From positions 64,001 to 112,252 of the IMG/VR virus record IMGVR_UViG_3300047557_004483: a stretch of DNA of 48,252 bases. One strand, given 5' to 3'. Positions 30,270 to 48,252 of the stretch are shown here, in pieces. The stretch is from a virus. The notes beneath the pieces are model-generated. The model had not been told where the DNA came from. It was given only the letters and a program-made list of their open reading frames with translations, and ran no database searches. The position numbers and the translations under genes are program-made. Numbering within the stretch: the stretch's first letter is position 1; each line of letters begins with the position of its first letter.

Positions 30270-33200
30270 TTATGCACATGCCCCAGCATCTGTTAATCCA
30301 CCATTAAGATAATTTTGAGAAAGGTAAGAAGTTGGGTTAATGTATATTATCGAAGCACTAAGTAAGAAATCATCAGGTCCTGTTGAAAGTGTACTGAAGT
30401 CTTTAGAACCATTTGCAGGAATGAACACTTGTGTGAAGTTACCTGGTCCTGTTTCTATAGTTTCATAGTCAATACCAATTTCAATCTGAGTCAAAACGTT
30501 AACTGAGTTTGTTCCATAAGCTCCAGGAGTCGCATCTGCATATCCATTGAAAGTTATCAACCACTCTGAACCATTGAATTGTGGTACAGGTTCAACGCAC
30601 ACACTTATATAGATGTCTAAGAATGGTGTTTGTGTCACTGTAGGAGTAATAGTTGTTGTTGGTGTTATTGTTGGAGTATTAGACCTTGTCGGTGGAGGTG
30701 CCGTTTCGGTAGGTGTGACTGTGGTAGTATTGGTTGGAGTTATCGAAGGAGTAACAGTATTAGTTGGTGTTATTGTAGGAGTTGTTGTTGTGGTAGGTGT
30801 ATTTGTTCTTGTAGGTGGTGGAGCAGTTTCAGTAGGTGTAATACTCGGTGTTATTGTTGGAGTGGCAGTACGAGTTAGAGTTGGTGTTGGTGTATTAGTT
30901 CTTGTAGGGTTAGGGGTTCTTGTATTTGTTGGTGTTATTGTGTTAGTTGGAGTTATTGACGGAGTCGCAGTCCTTGTTGGAGTAATAGTATTAGTTGGAG
31001 TTATTGACGGAGTAATAGTATTTGTTGGAGTAATAGTATTAGTTGGAGTAATAGTATTAGTTGGAGTTATTGACGGAGTAATAGTATTAGTCGGAGTTAT
31101 TGTGTTGGTTGGAGTTATTGAAGGAGTAACTGTATTTGTTGGAGTAATAGTATTAGTTGGAGTAATAGTATTAGTTGGAGTTATTGTGTTGGTTGGAGTT
31201 ATTGAAGGAGTAACTGTATTAGTTGGGGTTATTGTGTTTGTCGGGGTTATTGTGTTGGTTGGAGTTATTGAAGGAGTAACTGTATTAGTTGGAGTAATAG
31301 TATTAGTTGGAGTTATTGATGGTGTCGCAGTCCTTGTTGGCGTAATAGTATTAGTTGGAGTTATTGTGTTGGTTGGAGTTATTGAAGGAGTAACTGTATT
31401 AGTTGGGGTAACTGTATTAGTCGGAGTAATAGTATTCGTAGGTGTTATTGATGGAGTAACTGTATTAGTTGGGGTAACTGTATTAGTCGGAGTAATAGTA
31501 TTCGTAGGTGTTATTGATGGAGTAACTGTATTAGTTGGAGTAATAGTATTAGTTGGAGTTATCGATGGTGTTACACTATTAGTTGGAGTGATTGTGTTAG
31601 TAGGGGTTATAGATGGTGTTAATGTATTAGTTGGAGTTATTGTGTTAGTTGGAGTTATTGTATTTGTTGGTGTAATTGACGGTGTTATTGTATTTGTTGG
31701 TGTAATTGTATTTGTAGGTGTGATAGATGGAGTAAGAGTATTAGTTGGCGTTAAAGTATTGGTTGGTGTAATAGATGGAGTAGTAGTATTCGTTGGGGTT
31801 ATTGTATTTGTAGGAGTTATTGAAGGTGTTGTAGTGTTAGTTGGGGTTATTGTATTTGTTGGAGTTATTGTATTCGTTGGTGTAATTGATGGTGTTATAG
31901 TATTAGTTGGCGTGATGGTATTAGTTGGTGTTATTGATGGAGTGATAGTATTGGTTGGAGTGATGGTATTTGTAGGAGTTATTGAAGGTGTTGTAGTGTT
32001 TGTTGGAGTAGTTGTATTTGTTGGAGTTATTGTATTAGTTGGAGTTATTGAAGGTGTTATTGTATTTGTAGGAGTAATTGTGTTAGTAGGAGTATTAGTA
32101 TTGGTAGGTGTGATAGATGGAGTAATAGTATTTGTTGGTGTTATTGTATTCGTTGGTGTTATGGTGTTGGTTGGAGTTATAGATGGAGTAACTGTATTAG
32201 TTGGGGTTATCGTAGGGGTGTTAGACCTAGTTGGCGGAGGGAATGTCTCAGTCGGCGTATTTGTTACAGTATTGGTTGGAGTTATCGATGGTGTTATTGT
32301 GTTCGTTGGAGTAATAGTGTTAGTTGGAGTTATTGTGTTCGTTGGAGTAATAGTGTTAGTTGGAGTTATTGTGTTCGTTGGAGTAATAGTATTTGTTGGT
32401 GTTATTGATGGTGTGACGCTATTAGTTGGAGTTATTGTATTAGTTGGAGTAATAGTGTTAGTTGGTGTTATTGATGCTGTTACAGTATTGGTTGGAGTAA
32501 TAGTATTTGTCGGTGTGATAGTATTCGTTGGAGTTATCGATGGTGTTATTGTGTTCGTTGGAGTAATAGTGTTAGTTGGAGTTATTGTGTTCGTTGGTGT
32601 AATAGTATTAGTTGGTGTTATTGTGTTAGTTGGTGTAATAGTATTCGTTGGCGTTATTGACGGAGTAATAGTATTAGTTGGTGTTATTGTGTTAGTTGGT
32701 GTAATAGTATTCGTTGGCGTTATTGACGGAGTAATAGTATTAGTTGGTGTTATTGTGTTAGTTGGTGTAATAGTATTCGTTGGTGTTATTGATGGTGTTA
32801 TTGTATTTGTTGGAGTAATAGTGTTAGTTGGAGTTATTGTGTTCGTTGGTGTAATAGTATTAGTTGGTGTTATTGTGTTAGTTGGTGTAATAGTATTCGT
32901 TGGCGTTATTGACGGAGTAATAGTATTAGTTGGTGTTATTGTGTTAGTTGGTGTAATAGTATTCGTTGGCGTTATTGACGGAGTAATAGTATTAGTTGGT
33001 GTTATTGTGTTAGTTGGTGTAATAGTATTCGTTGGTGTTATTGATGGTGTTATTGTATTTGTTGGTGTTATGGTGTTGGTTGGAGTTATAGATGGTGTTA
33101 CACTATTAGTTGGGGTTATCGTAGGGGTGTTAGACCTAGTTGGCGGAGGGAATGTCTCAGTCGGCGTATTTGTTACAGTATTGGTTGGAGTTATCGATGG

Positions 33201-34484
33201 TGTTATTGTGTTCGTTGGAGTAATAGTGTTGGTTGGTGTAATAGTATTAGTCGGAGTTATTGTGTTAGTCGGAGTTATAGATGGTGTAATACTATTAGTT
33301 GGTGTTATTGTGTTAGTAGGTGTTATTGTATTGGTAGGTGTAATTGTGTTAGTGGGTGTTATTGATGGCGTAGCTGTGTTAGTAGGAGTGATTGTGTTGG
33401 TTGGAGTTATCGTATTAGTCGGAGTTATAGTATTAGTCGGAGTTATAGTATTAGTAGGAGTTATAGTATTAGTAGGAGTAAGAGTATTTGTAGAAGTTAC
33501 TGTAGGAGTATTAGACCTAGTTGGTGGAGGGAATGTCTCAGTTGGAGTAATTGTAACAGTAGTTGTTGGTGTTAATGTATTAGTTGGAGTAATTGTGTTG
33601 GTTGGAGTTATTGTGTTGGTTGGTGTTATAGATGGTGTTACTGTATTTGTAGCTGTTATTGTATTTGTAGGTGTTATTGTATTAGTTGGTGTCTGTGTAT
33701 TGGTCGGACTGTTAGTATTAGTTGGGCTTATAGATGGTGTAATTGATAATGTTATTGTTGTAGTAGGTGTTAGAGTTTGGGTGGCGGTAATAGTTGGTGT
33801 TTGAGTAATAGAGGTTGTTGGGGTTTGTGATGGTGTCAAAGTTTGAGTAGGAGTTGCTGTTTGTGGAGGCGTTCCGGTTGGTGAAGGTGTTTGAGTATTT
33901 GTTGTCGTTGGAGTTGGTGATGGTGTTTGTGTTGGACTACTTGTCTGCGTTGGAGTAAGGGTTATAGTGGTTGTTGGTGTTGCAGTATTGGTTGGTGTTA
34001 TTGATGGCGTTACTGTATTAGTTGGGGTTATTGTGTTAGTTGGTGTGATTGTAGGTGTTATTGTATTTGTTGGTGTTGGAGTTCTTGTAAAACAAGGAGG
34101 TAAAGGACTTATCGGTAGTGTTCTTGTAGGAGTTGCAGTATTTGTTGGTGTGACCGGTATTGTGGTGCTTGGACTTGGGGTTATTGTCGGGGTGTTTGTT
34201 GCAGTTACTGACGGTGTTGTTGTCGGAGTATCGAATGGTGTTGCGGTGACAGTTGGTGTCGGCGTCTCTGTTACGTAAACCCATTGCAAAAATTCACAAG
34301 CGTCATTATCTACTATTTTTATTATAAAATTATTGTCAGCATATGGTGGGGGTACTGTGAAAGAAATCGGAAATGTAGTTGCTGAAGTAACAAATACACA
34401 GTTAGCACTAAAAGAATCACAATAGTATATATCTACCGGGGTATTTGCTGTTACTGATTGTATTGTTACTAATTCTGAAGCCAT
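30270..34484 (-). CDS. Giant mucin-like fibre protein with ~1200-residue Thr-Pro stalk, 1404 aa
   Basis: Residues 1-~70 are a small domain ([20 protein letters not shown]...[20 protein letters not shown]) homologous to the whole 74-aa protein encoded just upstream. Residues ~72-1285 are an almost uninterrupted TP stalk with one Cys near residue 130, three [11 protein letters not shown] and two TETAPPPTR cassettes, and a 22-residue higher-order period (three TITPTN plus TITPS). Residues ~1286-1404 form a compact beta-rich C-terminal domain ([27 protein letters not shown]). The ATG at 34484 forms a TAATG overlap with the upstream stop. The ATG at 34517, 11 codons earlier, would overlap the upstream gene further and is less likely. 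Confidence 0.82.
32195..32321 (-). repeat. 127-bp exact dispersed repeat, copy 1
   Basis: Identical to 33104-33230, offset 909 bp (303 codons, in frame). It includes a [11 protein letters not shown] cassette and its flanks. The match ends abruptly on both sides. Confidence 0.9.
32557..33060 (-). repeat. Exact 252-bp tandem duplication in the fibre stalk
   Basis: Positions 32557-32808 and 32809-33060 read identically base for base (84 codons each, in frame). Each copy contains three 66-bp superrepeats plus one 18-bp unit. Sequence just outside differs (gttattgtgttc before copy 1 versus gttattgtattt at its end), which fixes the unit boundaries. No synonymous change has accumulated, implying very recent duplication or ongoing gene conversion. 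Confidence 0.9.
33104..33230 (-). repeat. 127-bp exact dispersed repeat, copy 2
   Basis: Second copy of the segment at 32195-32321, containing the [11 protein letters not shown] cassette. Confidence 0.9.
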
Positions 34485-34708
34485 TAGATTACTGTTGTTA
34501 CTCCTGTTATTGAACAATTGTTAAAATCAATCGCCTTTATCATATATGATGTTCCTGTATTATAAGGTTCTGGTATATCAAACACATAAGGAAATTCTGA
34601 AGCAGTTATAGTATTAATATAAAAACAAGAATCCCCCGTCGGTTGACAAACATAAATATCAAATGGTGTTTGTCCTGTTATATTATTTATTGTTGCCTGT
34701 ATTGCCAT
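34484..34708 (-). CDS. Small fibre-associated protein, stalk-less paralogue of the next fibre's N-terminal domain
   Basis: 74 aa ([62 protein letters not shown]). It aligns by eye with residues 1-65 of the 1404-aa protein: TPxDIYxCD/Q, a second Cys, xFPxxFxxPxPY, xFIIKxxDxxxC. It lacks any TP tract. The start overlaps the upstream fibre stop as TGATG and its stop overlaps the downstream start as TAATG, so three genes form a translationally coupled chain. It could be a capping or docking subunit that co-assembles with the larger fibre (inference), or a remnant of a gene split. Confidence 0.75.
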
Positions 34709-37700
34709 CAGTATTGACTTAATGGTGATTTAGTTACTGTTGATGGTGTTATCGACAAAACAGAGAATACTGTTTTGGTAACAGCCGAACAATTTCCGTC
34801 CAAAGGACATTGCTCTAAATTATAGGAAGTGAAGTTTTGTGTTACAAACGAACTACCAGCAGGTATTGTGATGAAAATTGTTTCATAATTTGTTCCCGAG
34901 CAATCGGTAACTTCTAAACTTACTTGGACAGTTATATCAACCGTAGTTATTGTTTGTGTGCCATCGGAATTGAAATTTGTTACTCTCAGAGTGGTCTCCG
35001 ATTTACTATATCCACCACAAAAGTCTGGTTGTCCTGTAACGAAACCATCATTATTTATCGTAATTTGAGAAGTTGTAGTTGGGATTCCATTGATACATTC
35101 AGAACAATTGGAATAAATCAATGTTCCGATACTTGTAAAATAATTTCCATTCCAACTTGTCGCAACTACATTAATAGGTGGAACATAGCTTGAAACAAAC
35201 GCTCCAAGATATGTCCAACAATTACCCACACTATCTTTGAATCTCTCATTCACTCGTATACTTGGTAATTGTGTTGTTTGAATTATTTGATTATTCAAAT
35301 ATGGATTGATTTGTAGTGGTTGACAACTTTCATAAACATAAACGAAGGTCATAGGACTTGAAGTTAATGTTGGTGTTATTGATGGAGTCGGTGTTATACT
35401 AGCAGTTACCGATGGTGTTGGTGTTACGCTAGCCGTTACCGATGGTGTCACACTTTGTGTAAGTCCCGGTGTCTTAGTTATTGTAGGTGTCACTGAAATT
35501 GATGGAGTAATTGTTGGTGTAATCGTCGGTGTAGGTGTAGTCGTTGTTGTTGGTGTAATTGATGGCGTTGGTGTTGGACTTGGTATATTTGAACATTCTG
35601 CATAAGTACCATAAATTCCAAAAATACTTTGAACAGAGCTGTTCGATGATAGATTGGAATCATTTCTTAAATAAGTTACACATAGATTTTGTCCGTTTAT
35701 TGTTGCTGCTATAGTAATTCCAACAACAATTGGAGTATCATTGAATATTAATGGGTCTGAAGTGTAGTACTCTGTTCCTGTTGACTCATCTAACAATACT
35801 TTTACAGATGCACAAATGAATTGGTTTTGTATAATTTCAAATGTTGCAGAGCCCGAGAAGGTCACGGGAATTGTTGGTGTAATCGTAGGAGTTGGTGTCG
35901 GTGTAACATTTGAACTCGGCGTATAAGCACTTAGAGAAAAATCAATACCAACCGAGTTACAATATTGTCCTGAAGGAGTTGGTGTTGGGGTCAATGTCAT
36001 TGCGCTGAGTGAAAAACCAACAACGTCACAGGATATGGCTGTAGATGGTGTCGGCGTAATCTGACAATCGAAATACGCATTGAAATCGAGAATATCGCAA
36101 TCAACAGGTGGTGTTGGAGGAGGTAAACAAGCTCCAACAGTGAAAACATTTCCGTCTAAGTCAGGACAGGTAGAACGGCAAGGATAAGCCCCCCTGATAA
36201 TACAAGGACCTCCCAAATATGTACTTAAACACCAACTTGTTCCATTGAAGAATATAATTCCGTATTGTGTTCCTCCCCCTTCATAATATGGGTAACAATT
36301 ATAGTAACCTCCGTACCACGTATAATTTCCAGTGAGTGCAGACAAACTATCTAATCCTGTATCTAAACAATAAACAAAATTTTCACATGTAAAAAATGTA
36401 GAATTCGTTGGTGTTGGTGTCGGTGATACTGCCGGTGTAGGTGGCGGAACACAACTTTCACAATTATTCGATATTGGCCCTTGTAAATATGGACCACCAG
36501 GCCCTGAAAATTCTTCGAAGTAATAACATTCTCCGTTATAAACATATGTCCCACCAGGGAATGCGGTATCTTCATCTATCAACGCATAAAAAACAGTGCC
36601 GGTTCCACATTTCAAAAGAAGCGCCGCTCTTCTCCCTACTCTTGGGCAAATCGTTTCCGCACAATCGAAAATTTCCGTAAAAGTAACCCCAACCGCATTG
36701 AATAGAGGGCCGGTATTTGTATTTGCTGTGTATGTTGCACATCCTTCAAACTCAGTGCTTCCCGTTATAAAATATACGGAACCCAACGTCAAAGATTGAA
36801 GTGGTCCTGCAAATCTAAAAATAATTCCACTGTCACAATCAATAAACTGAACAACAATTCCTGGAGGTGCAGGTGTTTGAGTTACAGAAGGAGTAAGTGT
36901 GGGTGTTGTAGTTGGTGTTGATGTAATCGTAGGTGTTGGTGACTCGGTTGGAGTAGATGTTTGAGTAGGTGTCGGTGTTTCAGTATTAGTTGGTGTAATT
37001 GTAGGTGTCGGTGTTTCAGTATTAGTTGGTGTAATTGTAGGTGTCGGTGTTTCAGTATTAGTTGGTGTAATTGTAGGTGTAGGTGTTTCAGTATTAGTTG
37101 GTGTAATTGTAGGTGTAGGTGTTTCAGTATTAGTTGGTGTAATTGTAGGTGTAGGTGTTTCAGTATTAGTTGGTGTTAAAGTATTAGTTGGTGTAATTGT
37201 AGGTGTAGGTGTTTCAGTATTAGTTGGTGTAATTGTAGATGTAGGTGTTTCAGTAGGTGTCGGTGTTTCAGTAGTTGTAGGAGTTTGTGTTGGGGTAATG
37301 GTTGGTGTTTCTGTCAATGTTGGTGTTGGTGTTTGTGAGGCTCCTTCGCTTGGGGTATTGGTCTGAGTTGGTGTATTAGTTGGAGTTTCAGTTGGAGTTG
37401 GAGTTTCAGTTGAAGTTATAGTTGGGGTTGGGGTTGGTGTGAGTGATAATGGTCCACAATAGCTTCCACAAATACTAACGTCCGCAATACTCCAACTTAT
37501 ACAATCAGTGGTTTGTCCAGGAGAACAGTAAATATCATTAGTATATAGAGAATCCTCAATTGCACAATTAATGATTGACTGTTGTCCACCTGGTCCTCCT
37601 GGTGCGGAATGAGAGTTTAATACACCATCACAATCGAGATAGTAAACAGTTTTAGTTGAACTATAAAAGTTTATAACCTCGTACTGTCTACAAGAAACAC

Positions 37701-38064
37701 ATCCTGTTGATGGTGATATTGTTACAGTGGGTGTTGGTGTTGGTGTTGGGGTCTCACCAGGTCCTCCTCCTCCTGTTGTTGAGGTAGGCGTTTGGGTGGG
37801 TGTTGAAGTTGCTTGAGGTGTTGGTGTCACACACCCAAAACACGGCTCATTACTTTGTGTTACGTTGATACAATCAATGGTTGTATTATCACAAGCATTC
37901 CCGAAAAAAAAGATACTGTTTTCCGCAGCACAAGGAATATTAGTTTGTTGTCCATTACCCGGAGCAGATATTGAAGATGGGGTGTCATCACATGCAGTAT
38001 AAAAAATAGTAACCGCACTTGAATAATAATTGACTATTTCATATGTATAACAACATAACGCCAT
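34708..38064 (-). CDS. Cys-rich modular fibre/adhesin with TP linkers, 1118 aa
   Basis: Two N-terminal paralogous Cys modules (residues ~3-75, [23 protein letters not shown]; and ~125-200, [23 protein letters not shown]) are joined by a TP/Gly linker. A ~185-residue TP stalk (about 209-395) carries a 36-bp tandem repeat. More Cys-rich modules follow (about 396-830), including three short C(D/N)xxxF-SLSA-type repeats. A second TP linker at ~828-908 precedes a C-terminal beta-rich domain ending [13 protein letters not shown]. Over forty cysteines is high for a virion fibre and suggests disulphide or metal stabilisation outside the cell. Start ATG at 38064, with a candidate promoter element 17 nt upstream. 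Confidence 0.78.
36880..37440 (-). repeat. Thr-Pro stalk of the 1118-aa fibre
   Basis: About 560 bp of [12 protein letters not shown]-type units plus one [17 protein letters not shown] cassette that is also found in the 1917-aa protein, linking the two stalks by shared sequence. Confidence 0.88.
36967..37236 (-). repeat. 36-bp tandem repeat, seven units
   Basis: Units start at 36967, 37003, 37039, 37075, 37111, 37147 and 37201. The first three are identical. Units 4, 5 and 7 differ from them by one synonymous base. Unit 6 carries an 18-bp insertion (an extra TLTPTN). They encode [12 protein letters not shown]. Confidence 0.92.
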
Positions 38065-38172: not shown

Positions 38173-40047
38173 TTAATAGATAAAGTAAGGTGGGGGGTTT
38201 ACCCACGAAGTATTACCAGCAATTCCACTCGCACCAGAAACTTTTTGCGATAATTTGTTAGATGGTTCTCCTTCAGTTGAAACGTAAATTACTTGGAAAC
38301 CTAAATTATATATTAACAAATCATAGGTCATACCATATACATCACCCAAGTAACTGAACATTCCCCTTATATTGTTTAAGTCTGTGTAACTTGTTCCAGT
38401 ATATCCACTGAGATTAAGTTCAGTTATTGTATTTCCTGATGCATCAAACAAAGTTGCATAACTTATACTATTTCCTGTATTAATATATGTCAAAGCATAT
38501 TGGTTTGTTATTGGGTCATACAAAACATCCCCATTTACGATACAGTTAGGACATTCTCCCGATAAAGAAAATACCAATTCTGAGGTAGAGGCCGATAAGT
38601 TCAATCTGTAAACACTATTTGTTGCAATTAGTAGTGTATTATCATCAACAGCAGTCATGCCTGAGCCTACTAAACTTGGGAAAGAATATGTTGTATCAAA
38701 AGTTACCGAGAACGGTACCTTAACATAATCATAAGAATAGATGTAACCCAAAGTATCATTAATGAAGATTTTATTATCAGTAATACCAATATTCAAACTT
38801 GTTCCTGATGTTGCGGCACTGAACAAATAACCGATAAGATTTGTATCAGGATTGTATCTATAAATTGAGTTATCAGTACTATCGATGAACATAGTATCCC
38901 CACTATTGAAAATAGGAATTGATGTTGGAGTTGGTGTGATTGTTGGAGTAGGCGTTAAAGTTAATGTAGGTGTAATTGTTGGAGTAACAGTAGGGGTTAT
39001 TGATGGTGTTGGAGTTGGAGTTGGTGGTGTGACTGAGAATCTTGGTGACTGAGCAACCAAATTCAAGAATATTTCTTGAATGTCCAAAGCAAAATCATAA
39101 ACATAAACATTCGATATTAACCCGTCGAAATATTCAGAAGAGGAAATATTTCCAACGCCCACAGTTAAGTTGGAAATAGTTGTGACATTGTGAGATGACC
39201 CTGGTTGGTCTGAGCCAACTAAGATTCCATCCAAATATATTTTTCTATCAGTTCCGTCGAAAGTTGCAACTATATTGTGCCATGCACCAGTACTAACAGC
39301 AACTGTCGCTGTTAAATCATTACCTTGCCACGAATTAACTATTCCTGTTGAAGTTAGTTTAAGGATGTTGGCCTGATTTGTACCAGAATAGTTACCCCAC
39401 GAAATAATTACCTTATTACCTAATGTAGTCGGTTTTACCCAAGTTGTGATTGTATATTCATCATTACCATTCGGTATATCAGTAACCGCCGAAAAACTGA
39501 CATAAGAGTTTCCTGACGATGAAAATGAAAGTGAACCACTTGCATCTGAATTGTAAGATACGTTATTTAATAATCCGTGATTGTTTTTACCTGATAAGTC
39601 GTCCCATTTTGTTCCAACTAATGGATAGGATAATGTATAGCCAGCATCCAAATATAAAGTTAATCCTTCAGATACTAATGTAGAACAGAATATATTTTGA
39701 ATACCATATTTACCCTCCGATTCTAACCATCCCACAGCATCTTCTATAGTTGTAAATCGAGGTTGCCCAAATCTATCTGGTAAACCGTTTATAAGTCCAA
39801 CAAGTAAAGAATCTGTCTTAGCTGAAGTACCCCAAAAAATTGGGTAGGAATTCGCCTCAGTCGTCAACCCTTGGGAATAACTATCTGAGACTATTACATA
39901 ACCTATTATTGGTGTATAAGCGTACCATCCCGTTTTCACAGTAGGTCCATAGTCTACGTCAGCAACACCGTAAGACATCTGATTTTTCTTCAAAGAGAAA
40001 TTCAGTGTCGTACCACTATTATAATGAACAGGATTGGTTGCTGGCAT
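38173..40047 (-). CDS. Virion fibre protein with LamG-like lectin domain, 624 aa
   Basis: Likely receptor-binding fibre. Residues 1-125 form an N-terminal part (FSLKKNQMSYGVADVDYGPTVKTGWYAYTP...) that may attach to the tail. Residues ~128-338 are a clear concanavalin/LamG sandwich: LYLDAGYTLSYP, W-DLSGKNNHG, TITTWVKPT, GAWHNIVATFDGTDRKIYLDG, FDGLISNVYVYDFALD. A short TP hinge lies at ~341-379. The C-terminal ~245 residues repeat IYRYN / YSYDYV / VYRLN-type strands consistent with a small beta-propeller. A LamG domain on a phage fibre points to carbohydrate binding on the host surface. It starts by TAATG overlap with the 60-aa upstream gene. Confidence 0.85.
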   Translation of the reverse strand: MPATNPVHYNSGTTLNFSLKKNQMSYGVADVDYGPTVKTGWYAYTPIIGYVIVSDSYSQGLTTEANSYPIFWGTSAKTDSLLVGLINGLPDRFGQPRFTTIEDAVGWLESEGKYGIQNIFCSTLVSEGLTLYLDAGYTLSYPLVGTKWDDLSGKNNHGLLNNVSYNSDASGSLSFSSSGNSYVSFSAVTDIPNGNDEYTITTWVKPTTLGNKVIISWGNYSGTNQANILKLTSTGIVNSWQGNDLTATVAVSTGAWHNIVATFDGTDRKIYLDGILVGSDQPGSSHNVTTISNLTVGVGNISSSEYFDGLISNVYVYDFALDIQEIFLNLVAQSPRFSVTPPTPTPTPSITPTVTPTITPTLTLTPTPTITPTPTSIPIFNSGDTMFIDSTDNSIYRYNPDTNLIGYLFSAATSGTSLNIGITDNKIFINDTLGYIYSYDYVKVPFSVTFDTTYSFPSLVGSGMTAVDDNTLLIATNSVYRLNLSASTSELVFSLSGECPNCIVNGDVLYDPITNQYALTYINTGNSISYATLFDASGNTITELNLSGYTGTSYTDLNNIRGMFSYLGDVYGMTYDLLIYNLGFQVIYVSTEGEPSNKLSQKVSGASGIAGNTSWVNPPPYFIY

Positions 40048-40269: not shown

Positions 40270-41112
40270 TTATGTCCTTGATATCATTGAAATTCCATCT
40301 GATGAATGATGTGTGAAGTTATTCTCTTTTATCCAATTAGTAATTAACTCTTTATCTTCTTCACTCAAATTGAAATCCTCATATATTATAAAGTTAGGAA
40401 TATTTTCTTTTGTCAAACTCAAAATAAGTTTTACATCCAATCCTTCAACATCCATGTGAATCCAATCTAAATTCCCACCAATAGATTTAATTAACTCATT
40501 TAATGATATAGAGTTTTTAACTGATGAATTAACTTCTTCCGTTTCCCAACTTCTTATCACCCTTTCAACTACGGAGTTTGTGTACCCCCTACCTCCCTCA
40601 AAAAATTCTACCTCACCTCCGTTAGGTGTAATAATTTCTTTTATTAAAGTAATTCCTGTTCTACCTTTGTAATTTTTTTCTAATTTTTCATATTGTTTGT
40701 CTGAAGCCTCAACCAAATAAACATCACTCATAAAATTCCTAACCAAAGGAACCCATTCGCCAAATTCACCATCATGTGTTCCTATCGCCAATCCTTTTGG
40801 GGTTTTCCCTGAATTAACTAATCCTTTACAGTACAACCATAAAGATTTATAAAATATGGAACCATGTTGAAAAATATCCCAATGATACTTAGTAACAAAT
40901 TTATTTTGATTATCTAATATGATGACATCATAGATTTCGTTTTGTCCAAATTTTGCCCACATGTTTTCATACAGCTTGGTAGACCAAACAACCTCTTTTG
41001 AAATTGCTTGTTTAATCTGAATCGTTAAGGGTAATTGGTCTTCTTTAAATACTTTTTTAAGTTCTCCTGTGGTTACTACTATTTTTCCACCACTATAGTC
41101 AATATTAATCAT
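40270..41112 (-). CDS. FkbM-family SAM-dependent methyltransferase, 280 aa
   Basis: Probably O-methylates a sugar. Seen: GLAIGTHDGEFGEWVPL (about residues 95-111), which fits the SAM-binding motif I of FkbM/Methyltransf_21 proteins, a motif II acidic strand VYLVEASDKQYEKLEKNY, and the diagnostic post-motif DWIHMDVEGLDVKLIL (about residues 218-233), followed by PNFIIYEDFNLS. Its start overlaps the acetyltransferase stop by 4 nt (ATGA), so it is coupled to a glycan-modifying gene. Role inferred: capping of glycans built by the glycosyltransferases of this island. Confidence 0.88.
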   Translation of the reverse strand: MINIDYSGGKIVVTTGELKKVFKEDQLPLTIQIKQAISKEVVWSTKLYENMWAKFGQNEIYDVIILDNQNKFVTKYHWDIFQHGSIFYKSLWLYCKGLVNSGKTPKGLAIGTHDGEFGEWVPLVRNFMSDVYLVEASDKQYEKLEKNYKGRTGITLIKEIITPNGGEVEFFEGGRGYTNSVVERVIRSWETEEVNSSVKNSISLNELIKSIGGNLDWIHMDVEGLDVKLILSLTKENIPNFIIYEDFNLSEEDKELITNWIKENNFTHHSSDGISMISRT

Positions 41113-41654
41113 AAATGCTTATCAATAAATTCATCTATTTTATCTGACCACATTAACATAGCTTCAGTTTTGATTCTATCTTCAGTCCAATCCCACCATT
41201 TGATTTTTAATAATGAGTCAATCTGTCTTTCATTGAATCTGTACTTAACTATCTTAGCCGGATTTCCAACAACAATTGCGTATGGTGGTATATCTTTAGT
41301 GACAACCGAATTTGCACCAACAACACTTCCGTTATGGATTTTTACTCCTGACATTATTGTAGATTTTGCACCAATCCATACATCGTTTTCAATTATAATA
41401 TCACCCTTACATGAAGGATGTCCCATATTCATATGTAAGTTTGCTATTTCAGGAGTAACGGGTCCCCATAATTGTGAGCTTGTTGTTATCCAATCAGGTC
41501 TGTGATTTGCATGTAAGAAAAAATTACAATCCCTACCTATAGAGTTGTATTTACCAAGATGAATGTGAAAATCATCACTCCAACTTATAATATTAACATT
41601 TCTGTCGAAGTAAGTTCCTCTGTCAGCGTGCCAAAGATGTAAATTTTCAATCAT
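41109..41654 (-). CDS. Left-handed beta-helix (hexapeptide) acetyltransferase, CatB/XAT-like, 181 aa
   Basis: Transfers an acetyl group, most likely to a sugar hydroxyl or amine. The hexapeptide repeat helix (IHLGKYNSIGRDCNFFLHANHRPDW) includes the catalytic-type His in NHRPDW. A GDIIIENDVWIGAKSTIMSGVKIHNGSVVGANSVVTKDIPPYAIVVGNPAKIVKYRF block is typical of the family, as is the short C-terminal WWDW helix of CatB/WcaF-like enzymes. Length 181 aa fits the family. The gene lies 1 nt after the GT-like protein gene. In a phage, this is best explained as glycan decoration. Confidence 0.9.
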   Translation of the reverse strand: MIENLHLWHADRGTYFDRNVNIISWSDDFHIHLGKYNSIGRDCNFFLHANHRPDWITTSSQLWGPVTPEIANLHMNMGHPSCKGDIIIENDVWIGAKSTIMSGVKIHNGSVVGANSVVTKDIPPYAIVVGNPAKIVKYRFNERQIDSLLKIKWWDWTEDRIKTEAMLMWSDKIDEFIDKHL

Positions 41655-41655
41655 T

Positions 41656-42582
41656 TTAAATCTTTTCTAAAGTATTATGTTTAATTTTTTCCAAAATTTG
41701 AGAAATGTCATGAACTTCATTTTGATATTTTAGTTTGACTTTTTTTAAGTTAATTTTGTTGAACCCTAAATTAATTATATCTAAATTATTTATAGTATAC
41801 TCCGTCTCTTTATCTTGGATAATCAAAGAAACTTTTTGTTCATTCATATTATCGTAAAATAATAATTTAATTGGTTCGAGTGTCTCATCGTTTTTTTCAA
41901 TAAAAAATTTCAAACCCTTTATTGGTGAAAAATTAAAAAAATCGTGTTCCTGATAATAGTAAATTTCATCTTCAACAGGAGTTTGTTCAATAGTATAATT
42001 TAATATTTTTTCTTTATTGTGTAACCAAACGAAAGCGTCCGCACCTCTGAGTTCGATATAACTTTCTTTAGTTATTTTTGACGCAAAATTTTGTAGATTT
42101 TCCTTGTTGAAAATCATGTAATGAAGCCCGACATCCCAAATCTTATTTTGTCTTTTTGACGGATAAACTGAGTTTGTTTTATCCGAATAAAATCCAGAGA
42201 TGACATTATCGTCAATTTTCAAATCGTATATGATGTGAAAGAACTGTTCATATCCTAAATTGAGTGAAATTTCACTAAGTTGTTTCACTTGATAAAGTCC
42301 TGCAAATCCATAATCAGGATTAGTGGCTGCAATTTTATAGTTTGACATTTCGGAAGATAGTATTCTCCAATGATACATTGACCTCTCGGGCCATTCTAAC
42401 ACCAAATTATCTTTAGTCAGAAAAAAATAATCACATAAGTCAACTATTTGTTTTTCCAAATAAAAGGGACTAATTAAAACCACGTCAATATTGTGACTTT
42501 TGATTGTTCTAATATTTTTTTCTAATACTTCAAGTTTTTTTTTGGTATCACAAAACGAACTTATTAGGGCTACTTTCCTCAT
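41656..42582 (-). CDS. Glycosyltransferase-like protein of unknown family, 308 aa
   Basis: The N-terminal MRKVALISSFCDTKKKLEVLEKNIRTIKSHNIDVVLISPF has the form of a GT-A Rossmann entry. An acidic motif in FFHIIYDLKIDDN (about residues 114-126) sits where a DxD-type motif would. This protein aligns by eye with the 320-aa protein at 43199-44161 (LIxSxxxxxKKExxLxxxxxxxxxxxxDIxxxxxxF, similar central motif), so the two are paralogues. No Pfam family is recognised with certainty. The rest is helical and aromatic-rich. Probably part of the glycan island. Confidence 0.6.
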   Translation of the reverse strand: MRKVALISSFCDTKKKLEVLEKNIRTIKSHNIDVVLISPFYLEKQIVDLCDYFFLTKDNLVLEWPERSMYHWRILSSEMSNYKIAATNPDYGFAGLYQVKQLSEISLNLGYEQFFHIIYDLKIDDNVISGFYSDKTNSVYPSKRQNKIWDVGLHYMIFNKENLQNFASKITKESYIELRGADAFVWLHNKEKILNYTIEQTPVEDEIYYYQEHDFFNFSPIKGLKFFIEKNDETLEPIKLLFYDNMNEQKVSLIIQDKETEYTINNLDIINLGFNKINLKKVKLKYQNEVHDISQILEKIKHNTLEKI

Positions 42583-42587
42583 TTATA

Positions 42588-43178
42588 CTAATTTTGATTT
42601 TCAATTATACCAATACCTCCCCAATGATTATTACTCATAAACCAATATTTGTTGACATCCATATCATTCCAAAAATTACTAACAAAACAAGCTGCCTTTG
42701 CGTGGAACTCAGATTCTTTTATATCATGAAATCCAATCAACCCACCATTTTTAACAAACTCCTTATACATGAAATAATCTAATTTTACCCCGTTTTCTGA
42801 ATGGTCTCCATCAATAAATAAAAAATCTAACTTTTTATCTCCGAGTATATTTTTTATTTGACGATGAGTTTTTAATGAATGAGAATCCCCGTTTATTATA
42901 TAAACCTCGTCCCCCATTTCTTTAAGTCTTAAGTCTCTTTTATCCACATCAAAATTTGTTGTTCCCCATGGACCATGAGCCCAGTCCAAAGAAATTTTAA
43001 TCCCTTCTGTCCCAGTAATTCTACTCCAACAAATAAAAGTACCCCCTTCATTTGTCCCAATCTCCATAAAATTTTTTATTTTTTTAGTTTTCAAAAAATC
43101 TAAACAACTCAAAATTTCATATCTGTTTTGAGCCATCCCCAATTGGTAAGCCTCTTCTATAATATATAAATTATCCAT
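42588..43178 (-). CDS. Class I SAM-dependent methyltransferase, CmcI/Methyltransf_24-like, 196 aa
   Basis: SAM-binding motif I is in FMEIGTNEGGTFICWSRI (about residues 37-54). A DxxxGDSH region (EVYIINGDSHSLKTHRQI) and the DFLFIDGDHSENGVKLDYFMY strand are the metal/substrate strand of the CmcI and Methyltransf_24 groups. GGLIGFHDIKES follows. Likely O-methylation of a glycan or another small acceptor. It sits between the two GT-like paralogues with short gaps, so it is co-transcribed with them. Confidence 0.85.
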   Translation of the reverse strand: MDNLYIIEEAYQLGMAQNRYEILSCLDFLKTKKIKNFMEIGTNEGGTFICWSRITGTEGIKISLDWAHGPWGTTNFDVDKRDLRLKEMGDEVYIINGDSHSLKTHRQIKNILGDKKLDFLFIDGDHSENGVKLDYFMYKEFVKNGGLIGFHDIKESEFHAKAACFVSNFWNDMDVNKYWFMSNNHWGGIGIIENQN

Positions 43179-43198
43179 ATGTTTTCTTTATAAAAAAA

Positions 43199-44161
43199 TT
43201 ATTCGGAGTTTTTGAATTTTATAAAATTTTTACGAGTAAAGTTTTCATACCCTATCTCATTGAAATCCCAATAGTGAGAAATTTCGTTGTTAATTATTAA
43301 CGTTAAATTATCTATTTTATCATATGATTCTAATTCTCTGAAAATCCAAATTTTTGGTTTAATTTCTATACTTATTAAACTTTTTTTATTTATGATTAAG
43401 CTTACTTCGAATGTTTTGTCTGAATCACTATTCCAACCGAAAAAAAACATTTTCTTACTTGATTCGTGATATATTGGTACCATCCAACGATTCAATGCAA
43501 TTTCATCATGTAACCCAACAAGAATATTGTGTTTTTTCAATTGCTCTTTATCTTTACATAATACAGGTTGCGATTTATCAATTAAACTTTTTTCATATTC
43601 TTCGGAAAGTTTAGAAGTATTTCCATTAAAAAAATCTAATATTTTTTTATCTGATAGTTCAAACCACTCGTTTGAAATTTTATTCAAATTAAAAGAAATC
43701 GGTGCCGAGGGTAAGGGGAATAATTGTGTAATATAATATATTATATTGTAACTTTCCAGTAAATTGGAGTTTTCTTGTAATTCAAGAAGATTGTTAATTC
43801 TAGAATCATATTCAAAAAAATGAACCTTTTCATAACCTAAACTTTTAGCATAAGATAACCCATGTAATAATAGTTTTATCATGGCAAATGCATGATTCCC
43901 TTTGAACGTTTCGGTGCTAGATATCATGAAACCCTCGTCTTTAAAAACCATTACACTTTTTTGATTTATGTCTGTTAGAATTTTATTTTCGGAATCACAA
44001 ATAACAAAGTTTGATTTTTCAAAAATATCTTTTGGAATGAAAATATGTGTGGATATCATTATATCATACTCCTTATCAATCACATCATTCACTAACTCTC
44101 TTAACATCTGTTCTTTTTTGCTATTTGATGCATGAGAAGTTATTAAAATTAATTCTCTCAT
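43199..44161 (-). CDS. Glycosyltransferase-like protein of unknown family, 320 aa
   Basis: Paralogue of the 308-aa protein at 41656. It begins MRELILITSHASNSKKEQMLRELVNDVIDKEYDIMISTHIFIPKDIFEKSNFVICD, has the central aromatic-acidic motif KVHFFEYDSRINNLLELQ (about residues 116-133) that parallels FFHIIYDLKID of its partner, and has a long beta-rich C-terminal part (MFFFGWNSDSDKTFEVSLIINKK). It is the first gene of the minus-strand glycan operon and is divergent from the GT4-TibC fusion gene. Function as a glycosyltransferase is inferred from motif shape and context. Confidence 0.6.
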   Translation of the reverse strand: MRELILITSHASNSKKEQMLRELVNDVIDKEYDIMISTHIFIPKDIFEKSNFVICDSENKILTDINQKSVMVFKDEGFMISSTETFKGNHAFAMIKLLLHGLSYAKSLGYEKVHFFEYDSRINNLLELQENSNLLESYNIIYYITQLFPLPSAPISFNLNKISNEWFELSDKKILDFFNGNTSKLSEEYEKSLIDKSQPVLCKDKEQLKKHNILVGLHDEIALNRWMVPIYHESSKKMFFFGWNSDSDKTFEVSLIINKKSLISIEIKPKIWIFRELESYDKIDNLTLIINNEISHYWDFNEIGYENFTRKNFIKFKNSE

Positions 44162-44265
44162 TGATTTTTATGTATTTAAAATTCTTCCGTAATTCTGTGT
44201 ACCCTTTGTACCATAATGTTTAAATTATAAATCATTAACATTATATTTTCAATAAAAGATTTCAA
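44162..44265. promoter_or_regulatory. Divergent intergenic region between minus- and plus-strand glycan genes
   Basis: The 104-nt AT-rich spacer must carry at least the plus-strand promoter for the GT fusion and probably the minus-strand glycan promoter. A TTTG (around 44207-44210) is followed by AT-rich sequence, but I see no convincing match to the Bacteroidetes -33/-7 (TTTG / TAnnTTTG) pair and no AATAAATA element. No coding frame or hairpin is visible. Confidence 0.5.
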
Positions 44266-46560
44266 ATGTTTATCCCTAAAATATACGCTCACGGTTCTTA
44301 TATAGGAAATACTGGATATAATCATCATACAAGGGATTTTTTCAGAAAATTAAGTTTACATTGTAATATCAAGGTAAGAAACTTTACTGTGGGTTCTACA
44401 TGGGATGGTTATAATTTATACCCCCACGATAACGAACCATACATAAATGATGTAGACAAATCCATCTTATACCAACAAATACTTTGGTCAAAAGACAAAA
44501 CTAGAGAAAATTTTTCTATATACCCGTCAATAGATAAAGAATTCTCACACGATGTTAATTTAGTTTTATGTGAAACAAATCATTACATATTCTACGATGA
44601 TTATGTGGGACCAAAAATTGCATATAACGTTTGGGAGACAACTTTACAACCTGAACAATTCTTCAATAGATTAAAAGAGTTTGATGAACTTTGGGTTCCT
44701 TCAAAATGGCAAAGAGATTGTACAATAGCACAAGGTTATGACCCCAATAAAATAAAAGTAGTTCCTGAAGGAGTTGATGACAAAGTTTTCTTCCCAAACC
44801 CACAAGTTAAAAACCAGCTTACGTCAGATGGTAGGTTTAAGTTTTTCTTAGCAGGAAGGTGGGACTATAGAAAATCAATAAAAGAAATTATAGAAACATT
44901 TATCAATACGTTCGATAAGGATGAACCTGTAGATTTATTAGTTTCAGTAGACAATCCGTTTTCGAATGATGGAATGAAAACCACAGAAGAAAGATTAAAA
45001 TTCTACGGGTTGGAGGATGATAGAATCAAAGTTTTACATTTCCCTTCGAGAACAGATTACGTAGACATATTGAAAAGTTGTCATTGTTTTGTTTCTTGTG
45101 CAAGGTCTGAGGGTTGGAATCTTCCTTTAATTGAATCTATGGCTTGCGGTACGCCTTCAATTTATTCGAATTGTTCAGGTCAGTTAGAATTTGCTGAAGG
45201 AAAAGGTATACCTGTCAATATTTTAGGTGAACAACCAGCATCTAATGGAACTTACAATCACTTCAATGAAATGGTTGGAAACTACTACGAACCTGACTTC
45301 ATAGACCTATCTTTCAAAATGAGAATGGTTTATAAAAACCACAGTGAGTATAAACAAAAAGCAATCAAAGAATCTGAAACCATTCGTGAGAATTTCAATT
45401 GGGATAAAATTGGAAAGTTGGGTTATGAAACTATCAAAGAATTTGTGTCAAAATCAAAATACAAACCAAAGAAAAAAATGGAAACAAATAAAATTCAAAT
45501 AAATTATATAGATGGTCCAAAAGTTGAAATTCTGGGACCTAACGAAAATTTGTATAAGGTAGAGTTTATTAATAAAACCACAGGAGAAGTTTTACACTCT
45601 GAAACAATTAAAAATAACATGTGGGTTGCTTGCGGTAAAAAATATTTCATACCTTGGGTCATAAAAATAAATGATGTAGTTTATGATGAATTCAATTTGG
45701 AAAATAAAAGAGTTTTGATATCGATAGAATCCAAATCAATCGGTGACACTTTATCTTGGGTTCCATATGCTGTTGAGTTTCAGAAGAAATATAAGTGTCA
45801 CGTTATCTTATCTTCTTTCCATAACCAATGGTTTAAAAATACAGAACCTTATAAAGACATAGAATTTATTGAACCGGGTCAATCCACGCCTTGCTTTGTT
45901 GTGTATAGAATTGGGTGGTTCAAAAATAATGAAGGTAAATTTAAAAACACAAATTTAAATCCAACTCAAGTTAATACAATACCTCTACAAAAAACTGCTA
46001 CTGATATTTTAGGATTGGATTACATCGAAGTTAACCATGGTATCAAATTCAAACCAAAAAAGAAACCAATAGATAGTAAATACATAGTCATTGGTCCCAT
46101 ATCAACCGCAGGTTTGAAAGAATGGCCCTATGAAAATTGGTCAGAATTATCAAAATTATTAAATAACGAAGGTTATATAGTTGTCTCACTAACAAAAGAC
46201 AAATTCAATTTACCTAATGTTGCAAATTATGTTACAAGTGATTGGGATGAAATTTTCAATTTTTTACATCATTCAGAATTTTTTATAGGTTTGAGTTCAG
46301 GTTTATCTTGGGTCAATTGGGCATTAGGTAAACATACAGTAATGATATCAGGTTTTAGTTCTGATGACCATGAATTCCAAAATAATGTTACGAGAATATC
46401 AAATCAGGTGTGTATTAAGTGTTGGAATGACCCCGTATTTACATTTGATGGAGGTGATTGGAATTGGTGTCCGGTATATAAAGGGACAGAAAGACAACAC
46501 ATATGTCAAAAATCAATAACAGTAAGTCAAGTATTTAATAAAATTAAAAACCTTTTATAA
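44266..46560 (+). CDS. Two-domain glycosyltransferase: GT4 domain fused to TibC/Aah-like protein O-heptosyltransferase, 764 aa
   Basis: Residues 1-~400 are a GT-B family 4-like transferase (VPEGVDDKVFFP, FFLAGRWDYRKSI, then the E-x7-E motif in SEGWNLPLIESMACGTPSI). Residues ~405-764 match the TibC/Aah autotransporter strand-loop-strand O-heptosyltransferase family: INYIDGPKVEI, NNMWVACGKKY, SIGDTLSWVPYAVEF, PLQKTATDILGLDY, LSSGLSWVNWALGK, and a four-Cys metal-finger Cys716, Cys719, Cys735, Cys747 (CIKCW ... WCPVYKGTERQHIC). TibC-type enzymes transfer heptose to Ser/Thr of repetitive adhesins. Met405 lies exactly at the domain boundary. One of only two complete plus-strand genes. The donor sugar is unknown. 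Confidence 0.85.
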   Translation: MFIPKIYAHGSYIGNTGYNHHTRDFFRKLSLHCNIKVRNFTVGSTWDGYNLYPHDNEPYINDVDKSILYQQILWSKDKTRENFSIYPSIDKEFSHDVNLVLCETNHYIFYDDYVGPKIAYNVWETTLQPEQFFNRLKEFDELWVPSKWQRDCTIAQGYDPNKIKVVPEGVDDKVFFPNPQVKNQLTSDGRFKFFLAGRWDYRKSIKEIIETFINTFDKDEPVDLLVSVDNPFSNDGMKTTEERLKFYGLEDDRIKVLHFPSRTDYVDILKSCHCFVSCARSEGWNLPLIESMACGTPSIYSNCSGQLEFAEGKGIPVNILGEQPASNGTYNHFNEMVGNYYEPDFIDLSFKMRMVYKNHSEYKQKAIKESETIRENFNWDKIGKLGYETIKEFVSKSKYKPKKKMETNKIQINYIDGPKVEILGPNENLYKVEFINKTTGEVLHSETIKNNMWVACGKKYFIPWVIKINDVVYDEFNLENKRVLISIESKSIGDTLSWVPYAVEFQKKYKCHVILSSFHNQWFKNTEPYKDIEFIEPGQSTPCFVVYRIGWFKNNEGKFKNTNLNPTQVNTIPLQKTATDILGLDYIEVNHGIKFKPKKKPIDSKYIVIGPISTAGLKEWPYENWSELSKLLNNEGYIVVSLTKDKFNLPNVANYVTSDWDEIFNFLHHSEFFIGLSSGLSWVNWALGKHTVMISGFSSDDHEFQNNVTRISNQVCIKCWNDPVFTFDGGDWNWCPVYKGTERQHICQKSITVSQVFNKIKNLL

Positions 46561-46928
46561 TGGAAATACAAGTTGGACTTGGAGAAATTATTGATAAATT
46601 ATCAATATTAATGATTAAAAAAGAAAACGTCGTTGACCCTATTAAATTGAATAATATAAATAAAGAATTAGAATACCTAAACCGAATTGTTGAAAGTCTA
46701 CAAATTGATGCTGAGGATATTTTTTTATTGAAAGAAATTAATAAAAAATTGTGGCAAATTGAAGATGATATCCGTAACAAAGAAAGAAATAAGGTATTTG
46801 ACGATGAATTTATATATCTCGCAAGACAGGTGTATATCACTAACGATTTAAGAGCTGATGTGAAAAGGAAAATAAATGAAAAATATTCCTCAGACTTTAT
46901 TGAGGAAAAATCGTATTCTGAATATTAA
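46560..46928 (+). CDS. DUF6165-like protein, 122 aa
   Basis: [39 protein letters not shown]...[19 protein letters not shown]...[26 protein letters not shown] is the full-length pattern of DUF6165: GELIDKLxIL, DxxKLxNIxxEL, NxxLWxIEDDIR, FxxLAxxVYxTND. The family is commonly encoded next to glycosyltransferases. The start forms a TAATG overlap with the GT fusion, so it is translationally coupled to it, which supports a partner role. Molecular function unknown. Its stop codon overlaps that of the convergent collagen-like fibre gene. Confidence 0.85.
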
Positions 46929-48252
46929 TCAGTTGGATATTTGTCAACATATTCAATATCGAACCTTTCGATATCTTTTCTTTCTGCTAAAATTATAAAA
47001 TAAGTATTTATAACTCCAGTTTCTGATTCGATTAAGATTTTATTATCTAAAATACTTCTTACATAGTGTACTGTAGGAGTCCCTTTGGGCGTCAATTGAA
47101 CTGTCATTGAGTCTTCATATACCAAATTAACCCAATAATCTGGTAGATATATTAAATTTTCAGTAGTATACCCTCTTAGATAAACGCCATGTTCAGGCCC
47201 TTCGAGCACACCATATCTGAGTCTGAACCCTTTTTTTGTTGGGTGTATTATATCGAAGGATTTTGTTGTTGCAACTATATCTCCAACCACAGTTAATACT
47301 GTTCCATCGAATGTCATGTTTGGTTCCCCGTTCAAAGTACCAGGTGTATTACTACCCGTAATTACTCTATTATCAGCGTTGTTATTTATAGTCGCAGTTC
47401 CAGGAGCACCTTGAGCACCTTGAGGTCCTTGTGGACCAACTGCTCCTTGCGCACCTTGACCTCCTTGAGCACCCTGAGGACCTTTAGCACCTGTAGGTCC
47501 AATAGCTCCTTGAGCTCCTTGTCCTCCTTGAGCACCTGTAGGTCCAATAGCTCCTTGAGCTCCTTGTCCTCCTTGAGCACCTGTAGGTCCAATTGCACCT
47601 TGAGCACCTTGAGGTCCTTGTGGACCAACTGCTCCTTGAGCACCTTGTCCTCCTTGAGCACCCTGGGGACCTTTAGCACCTGTAGGTCCAATAGCTCCTT
47701 GAGCTCCTTGTCCTCCTTGAGCACCTGTAGGTCCAATAGCTCCTTGAGCACCTTGTCCTCCTTGAGCACCTGTAGGTCCAATAGCTCCTTGAGCTCCTTG
47801 TCCTCCTTGAGCACCTGTAGGTCCAATTGCGCCTTGAGCACCTTGAGGTCCTTGTGGACCAACTGCTCCTTGAGCACCCTGAGGACCTTTAGCACCTGTA
47901 GGTCCAATAGCACCTTGAGCACCTTGAGGTCCTTGTGGACCAACTGCTCCTTGAGCACCTTGTCCTCCTTGAGCACCTGTAGGTCCAATAGCACCTTGAG
48001 CACCTTGAGGTCCTTGTGGACCAACTGCTCCTTGAGCACCTTGACCTCCTTGAGCACCTGTAGGTCCAATAGCACCTTGAGCACCTTGAGGTCCTTGTGG
48101 ACCAACTGCTCCTTGAGCACCTTGTCCTCCTTGAGCACCTGTAGGTCCAATAGCACCTTGAGCACCTTGAGGTCCTTGTGGACCAACTGCTCCTTGAGCA
48201 CCTTGACCTCCTTGAGCACCTGTAGGTCCAATAGCACCTTGAGCACCTTGAG
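46925..48252 (-). CDS. Collagen-like (Gly-X-Y) tail fibre protein, C-terminal part, cut by the right edge
   Basis: The real minus-strand frame is open from the edge (48252) to TAA at 46925, 441 codons, with no stop. The first ~285 residues are Gly-X-Y triplets ([15 protein letters not shown]..., GAVGPQGPQ). A spacer ([41 protein letters not shown]) follows. A C-terminal domain ([31 protein letters not shown]...LPDYWVNLV) resembles the end domain of T4-like cyanophage fibres. It lacks an obvious S74 autoprotease dyad. Triple-helical collagen stalks are common in phage fibres. The 5' end lies outside the window. A frame starting 1-2 bases away also reads open through the repeats but is not the gene. 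The stop shares TTAA with the convergent plus-strand gene. Confidence 0.85.
47399..48252 (-). repeat. Collagen-type tandem repeat, 81-bp unit (27 residues)
   Basis: Successive units are offset by exactly 81 bp over the right end (for example the caatagcacc mark at 47986, 48067, 48148 and 48229). Further left the unit is partly deleted or rearranged. It encodes [18 protein letters not shown]-type triplets and is cut by the window edge. Confidence 0.93.

Follow-up and report, generated by a model that had tools for sequence, protein, structure and literature searches.

A TibC-type glycosyltransferase fusion as the core of a candidate O-glycosylation cassette for phage tail fibres

Why would a phage keep a run of glycan-type genes in the midst of its tail fibre genes, and on which molecule would their products act? 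This question is raised by a window of 48,252 nucleotides, covering bases 64001-112252 in the 112-kb record of an uncultivated virus, in which a check of the open reading frames confirmed seven adjacent glycan-type genes (positions 40270-46928), every one of them at the place given in an earlier note on this DNA. The island lies between fibres with Thr-Pro (TP) stalks on one flank and a collagen-like tail fibre on the other. Of 29 genes tested in the window, none shows a Shine-Dalgarno-like leader, the leaders being A-rich; genes without such leaders fit a Bacteroidota host.

The core enzyme of the island is a 764-residue protein (44266..46560, + strand), assigned by family, profile, fold and alignment, in which a GT4 domain (about residues 94-385) is fused to a TibC/Aah-type domain (about residues 408-762). 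The GT4 half scores 50.8 with PF00534 (cut-off 26.4) and matches phrog_2170, and a separate search with it led to Streptomyces and Rhodococcus phage glycosyltransferases. The fusion passes the cut-off of PF01075 (31.7, cut-off 22) and stays below that of TibC_1st (21.9, cut-off 27). With TIGR04414, the Aah/TibC family, it reaches 233.5 bits and passes the NCBI equivalog cut-off of 200 bits; the same family scores 317.4 bits in the distant Microcystis phage Mel-JY01 and 304.7 bits in LR756501. Compared with PDB 4rap, the TibC half gave an E-value of 4e-39 by sequence and 1e-67 with a family profile, and the best Foldseek match of the fusion model (pLDDT 84, falling below 50 in the iron-finger loop, residues 728-744) was the TibC fold (E = 6e-26). 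The relationship of the C-terminal half to TibC is strong in both sequence and fold.

We used the functional residues of TibC described in PMC4358343 to assess conservation in an alignment of 24 proteins, namely that of the window and 23 others, some of which are close to each other. The catalytic base and three of the four donor contacts of TibC are kept in the fusion family, since D494, T614, K618 and W682 (the base D110 and the contacts T226, K230 and W305 of TibC) are invariant in 24/24. The iron-finger cysteines C716, C719, C735 and C747, equivalent to C339, C342, C358 and C370 of TibC, are likewise invariant in 24/24 and have the same spacing. The region of the beta-hairpin thumb of TibC aligns with the fusion, but its Phe-Val tip is not evident there. 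In PMC4358343, Arg-286 of TibC is described as contacting adenine N1, which explains the specificity for ADP-sugars. This position holds V, S, I, A or L in 23 of the 24 proteins (Ile in that of the window) and R in one, suggesting that the donor may not be ADP-heptose. The TibC/Aah-like fusion named in the earlier note is upheld as to the TibC relationship, and heptose as its sugar is uncertain. By its sequence, the fusion is very likely a protein glycosyltransferase that acts in the manner of TibC; the TibC sequence, the fold and the kept catalytic and metal residues support the proposal that a phage protein O-glycosylation system stands beside the fibres.

The remainder of the island comprises an FkbM-type methyltransferase (40270..41112, - strand) with a marginal family score (23.5 against a cut-off of 22.7 in Pfam, and 30.8, below the cut-off of 37.7, in NCBIfam); a hexapeptide acyltransferase (41109..41654, - strand; family score 38.4, cut-off 27), a candidate for glycan O-acetylation; a Methyltransf_24-type methyltransferase (42588..43178, - strand; 47, cut-off 26.3), which may O-methylate sugars and whose CmcI match stays below the cut-off (16.4, cut-off 23.2); a DUF6165 protein (46560..46928, + strand; 31.8, cut-off 27), encoded directly after the fusion gene; and two further putative glycosyltransferases. 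Most of the families named beforehand thus passed curated cut-offs, with FkbM marginal and the CmcI and TibC_1st matches too low. The two "GT-like paralogues" are GTp1 (43199..44161, - strand), a putative glycosyltransferase of the GT-A fold that ends in a beta domain, and its divergent paralogue GTp2 (41656..42582, - strand), recognized by a shared BLAST cluster and alignment. Neither has a match in family searches, but the fold of GTp1 and the shared cluster support the call: Foldseek aligned the AF2 model of GTp1 (pLDDT 92) with the GT-A glycosyltransferases 3cgx, 6p61, WrtF and glycogenin (best E = 9e-6; TM-scores of 0.28-0.54, the matches being partial), and GTp1, GTp2 and proteins of the relatives fall into one BLAST cluster. 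The acyltransferase is 71-82% identical to its counterparts in several relatives, and its nearest solved relatives are the xenobiotic acetyltransferases CatB/Vat; a drug-resistance gene was ruled out, since scores of about 122 bits stay below the cut-offs for CatB (350) and Vat (300).

Gene clusters for surface polysaccharides commonly contain GT4, GT-A-like, methyl- and acyltransferases, and many of the weak matches that the fusion and the acyltransferase gave are to enzymes of this kind, which would be in line with an island that alters the lipopolysaccharide or capsule of the host during infection, for example blocking a second phage. We regard this as quite unlikely, because the conserved core belongs to the protein-directed TibC type, has an iron finger, is located among fibre genes (beside a sheath gene in about 20 loci) and tracks one kind of fibre, as described below, and because family searches gave no match to a flippase or membrane acyltransferase among the seven island genes. 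It is extremely improbable that the glycosyltransferases act on the phage's own DNA, as those of T4 do. The virus has T4-like replication genes, and phage glycosyltransferases can act on DNA according to PMC12619734, but no gene of the thymidylate-synthase/hydroxymethylase family was found in the 112-kb record, which may be incomplete, and the TibC-type core and the fibre neighbourhood also argue against DNA as the target.

The earlier note had proposed the TP stalks as acceptor. The window encodes two large TP fibres, one of 1917 aa (24475..30228, - strand) with a stalk of 1051 aa holding 481 Thr, and one of 1415 aa (30270..34517, - strand) with a stalk of 1233 aa holding 547 Thr. Taken whole, the longer fibre has 594 Thr, 123 Ser and 12 Ser-Gly, and the shorter one 565 Thr, 81 Ser and no Ser-Gly. 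The same region encodes a TP-containing protein of 1118 aa (34708..38064, - strand), probably a fibre, a minor-tail-like protein of 624 aa with a short TP linker (38173..40047, - strand) and, judging by its place, a probably structural protein of 1870 aa with TP linkers (18535..24147, - strand). Long antisense open reading frames within the TP repeats (for example 30613-33804, + strand) were taken as repeat artefacts.

On the other flank, the window end cuts through a collagen-like (GAQ/GPQ/GPT) tail fibre, of which the C-terminal part lies inside (46925..48252, - strand). A near-identical record (L002), with 2 differences in the 13,987 bases that overlap the window, extends past this end and contains the full form, a protein of 748 aa with 20 Ser that matches phage tail-fibre families. 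Three more GAQ-type collagen-like proteins are encoded in tandem by the same virus outside the window (G000:C1:44904-51286). The near-identical record also contains a (GSS/GTS)n fibre gene starting 2,257 bases past the window end; lying 2.3 kb beyond the window, this fibre was out of the earlier reader's view. The first 600 aa of its Gly-Ser-Ser/Gly-Thr-Ser (GSS/GTS) part hold 319 Ser and 78 Thr. The sequence D-S/T-[AILVMT] is the O-glycosylation motif of Bacteroidota. We found no such motif in either TP stalk, as had been claimed, nor in the 600 GSS/GTS residues just mentioned, and the argument that a phage enzyme would be needed consequently applies to both.

Relatives of the fusion occur in 31 viral contigs, including the window's own virus. 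A scan of bacterial genome contigs gave one relative, in the MAG contig L428 (JAAEPJ010000383.1), which may itself be phage. By BLAST cluster, 17 of 33 loci have FkbM relatives, 22 have GT-A-like paralogues and 12 have the acyltransferase; a contractile-tail sheath gene lies in the neighbourhood of 20 loci and a tube-like gene in that of 19. A sheath match was found in 25/33 records; in L012 the sheath is over the Pfam cut-off and the tube is not. Single annotated loci add epimerase, PglD-like, GT2, nucleotidyltransferase-phosphatase and 2OG-oxygenase genes, the first four kinds being what the building of a glycan needs. Heptose biosynthesis genes, guessed from lengths in L011-L013, were ruled out for L012, where a protein of 193 aa proved to be a 2OG-Fe(II) oxygenase and none of the other candidates tested matched a heptose gene.

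Several features of single islands stand apart from this pattern. 2OG-Fe(II) oxygenases (PF13640, PKHD/prolyl-hydroxylase-like) occur in the islands of L011-L013, L015, L024, L025 and L008, as judged by Pfam for L012 (2208-2789) and L008 (1336-3189) and by BLAST cluster for the others; the gene at L008:1336-3189 joins this domain to GT2 and TPR. Among L011-L013, L015, L024 and L025, a collagen-like protein containing Pro occurs in those records that show a fibre, and hydroxylation of phage collagen is thus possible; the window's record has no match to PF13640. Two islands also contain a radical-SAM/SPASM-like gene (L012:4995-5840) or an amine-oxidase-like gene (L008:4359-5594). A second, shorter TibC-type copy of 292-297 aa directly follows the fusion in L007, L021, L022, L023, L029 and L032, and at L029:8775-11074 the fusion is interrupted and runs in two frames, of 250 and 473 aa, which may be an assembly error.

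The usual partner of the enzyme in the longer records is a giant protein of Gly-Ser-Ser/Gly-Thr-Ser triplets, the longest reaching 4507 aa and 1406 triplets, with almost no Pro in the repeats. We detected an S74 tail-fibre chaperone at 2 of the 9 GSS/GTS C-terminal fragments tested (L017, L032), and also at a tenth fragment, from the Thr-rich collagen of L013. The GSS/GTS proteins of L003, L005 and L006 have a C-terminal domain in common with the window's collagen-like fibre (56-58% over 155 aa). The pairing recurs in two distant phages, Mel-JY01 and LR756501. In Mel-JY01, 202 Gly-X-Y triplets rich in Ser/Thr lie less than 2 kb from the enzyme, and six neighbouring genes gave no NCBIfam match. 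LR756501 (735 kb) has a shorter repeat less than 4 kb from the enzyme, and no Ser/Thr repeat was found within 20 kb of the TibC-only protein of LR756504. Among the annotated neighbours, which are part of all neighbours, there is no autotransporter adhesin; the repetitive neighbours are phage fibres.

To assess which fibre type accompanies the enzyme, we compared the 15 enzyme-bearing records of at least 35 kb, a table that omits G019 and G023 (partial; near-copies of G016 and G024) and in which the window's own virus, G001, is the source of its GSS/GTS entry. A (GSS/GTS)n fibre is present in 13/15 and TP stalks in 9/15; after merging near-copies by hand (G003/G027 and G004/G005, by eye, leaving 13 distinct records) the counts are 11/13 and 7/13. 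The two records without GSS/GTS end 2.9 kb from the enzyme (G026) and 8.9 kb away, inside a collagen-like fibre (G024). Four of the six records without a TP stalk (G010, G012, G029, G031) have FkbM and GT-A-like relatives; of the others, G016 has the acyltransferase only and G026, which ends near the enzyme, a GT-A-like gene only.

We then compared records by fibre type, using a TibC-domain profile search of whole records. The TibC-type enzyme was found in 24/80 GSS/GTS-fibre records (80 of 120 stretches, among the matches listed; 74/80 with at least 15 triplets in one frame), in 5/80 TP-stalk records (80 of 120, among the matches listed; 78 new ones plus L197 and L234, which were negative in the GSS/GTS survey) and in 4/50 GAQ-collagen records (50 distinct records, the first among 80 listed). 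G143 was positive in both the GSS/GTS and the TP survey. The difference between the GSS/GTS records and the 78 TP records was significant (p = 1.5e-4; length-stratified permutation p = 5e-5), also with shared records removed (23/77 versus 4/77; p = 8e-5), these statistics including near-copies and host group being a possible confounder. In records of at least 50 kb the enzyme was seen in 16/27 GSS/GTS versus 4/34 TP records. Among TP records of any length whose stalk has at least 200 aa, it was seen in only 3/29.

Not every observation on the GSS/GTS fibre points the same way. The enzyme was seen in none of the other 56 of the 80 GSS/GTS records, many of which are fragments. It lies within 10 kb of a GSS/GTS repeat in 13 of the 24 survey records, but no closer than by random placement (combined p = 0.18; 24 survey records, repeats of the retrieved stretches only), and proximity was rejected as proof of pairing in this wide set. 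In a control restricted to the sheath lineage (36/80 loci, those of about 10.9 kb or longer), GSS/GTS accompanied 4/14 enzyme-bearing versus 1/22 other loci (p = 0.06), a link that is only suggestive, and a sheath-lineage phage with a 7-kb GSS/GTS fibre region (L163/G059) gave no TibC-type match.

The choice of residue also bears on the acceptor. According to PMC4358343, TibC modified Ser, not Thr, in one mapped TibA peptide, where a Gly comes directly after one of the two modified sites. Because the GSS/GTS part is Ser-rich and the TP stalks are Ser-poor, serine points to the GSS/GTS fibre. It appears unlikely that the enzyme O-glycosylates Thr in the TP (TITPTN) stalks, whether these are its sole acceptor or share that role with the GSS/GTS fibre. 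In its favour, the TP fibres adjoin the island in the window and accompany the enzyme in part of the longer records, and the two stalks together offer 1,028 Thr with no Bacteroidota O-glycosylation motif; the preference of TibC for Ser in the mapped peptide, the six longer records without a TP stalk and the rarity of the enzyme among TP-fibre records count against it. The TP stalks thus found no support as acceptor, and they look less likely in this role than the GSS/GTS fibre.

The collagen-like fibre with GPT triplets adjoins the island as well, Thr-rich collagens occur in G002, G010-G012 and G024, and collagen-like proteins of the BclA type are reported to be glycosylated. We nevertheless consider it very unlikely that Thr of GPT triplets would be the main acceptor, as in spore BclA proteins, given the few Ser of this fibre and the lower frequency of the enzyme in GAQ-collagen than in GSS/GTS records (p = 0.004; 16/27 versus 4/17 at 50 kb or more, p = 0.03). 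Together, these results make it somewhat more probable than not, as far as sequence can tell, that the island is a phage cassette which O-glycosylates tail fibres and that the GSS/GTS fibre is its main acceptor.

In the proposed mechanism, a nucleotide donor would supply the sugar that the TibC half attaches to serines in the (Gly-Ser-Ser/Gly-Thr-Ser)n stalk of the giant tail fibre. Lengthening of the glycan could then fall to the GT4 half together with the two GT-A-like paralogues, and the FkbM and Methyltransf_24 proteins and the acyltransferase could cap it with methyl and acetyl groups. A cytosolic enzyme using nucleotide sugars would suit proteins that fold in the cytosol, and the sugar coat might make the stalk stiffer, keep it soluble or mask it. 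The acceptor, the donor, the order of the steps and the benefit of the cassette are what we infer; what we observed is the family and fold of the TibC half, the conservation of its active site, its gene neighbourhood and its co-occurrence with GSS/GTS fibres. As a tentative and more specific picture, a TibC-type enzyme fused to GT4 and retuned to a sugar other than ADP-heptose may heavily glycosylate the serines of (GSS/GTS)n fibres as a "bottle-brush", served by a dedicated methyl- and acetyl-capping island, in distantly related phages and on fibres that can reach more than 4,000 residues.

The closest known systems are the TibC/Aah heptosyltransferases (BAHT family; TIGR04414; PDB 4rap, 4rb4), which have the same fold, catalytic Asp, Thr/Lys/Trp contacts and iron-finger spacing and likewise have long repetitive surface proteins as partner. 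In contrast to them, the enzyme described here is fused to GT4, encoded by a phage and adjoins tail fibres, is surrounded by methyl-, acyl- and further glycosyltransferases, and has Arg-286 replaced in nearly all aligned proteins. TibC itself has a beta-hairpin thumb with a hydrophobic tip and forms a dodecamer ring. In mycobacteriophages, whose virion glycosylation was reportedly described by Freeman et al. 2023, a phage glycosyltransferase coats the phage's own virion proteins, as is likewise proposed here. In that work the capsid and the tail-tube C-termini are reported to be modified, whereas here the core is of the TibC type and the likely partner is a repetitive tail fibre. A trait of phage virion glycosylation, a glycosyltransferase encoded with virion structural genes, is found here (fibre neighbours, sheath). 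The BclA spore proteins also have Gly-X-Y repeats with Ser/Thr, and an O-methyl sugar is reported in the BclA glycan, but the GSS/GTS repeats here are almost without Pro. We know of no TibC-type enzyme in BclA systems. The moraphages, jumbo phages predicted to infect Bacteroidota (PMC12619734), have core glycosyltransferase genes; the accessible part of that article describes no fibre role for them, and the words "TibC", "collagen" and "heptosyltransferase" are absent from its main text.

A full-text literature search, which was not exhaustive, found no work linking a TibC-type enzyme with phage fibres. If the proposed cassette is true, it would offer a reason for the large sets of glycan genes that such phages have next to their tail genes, and hyperglycosylation of the TibC type would extend from bacterial adhesins to virus fibres. 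For long phage fibres of low complexity, the fusion and the GSS/GTS stalk would provide an enzyme and a substrate that can be tested as a pair.
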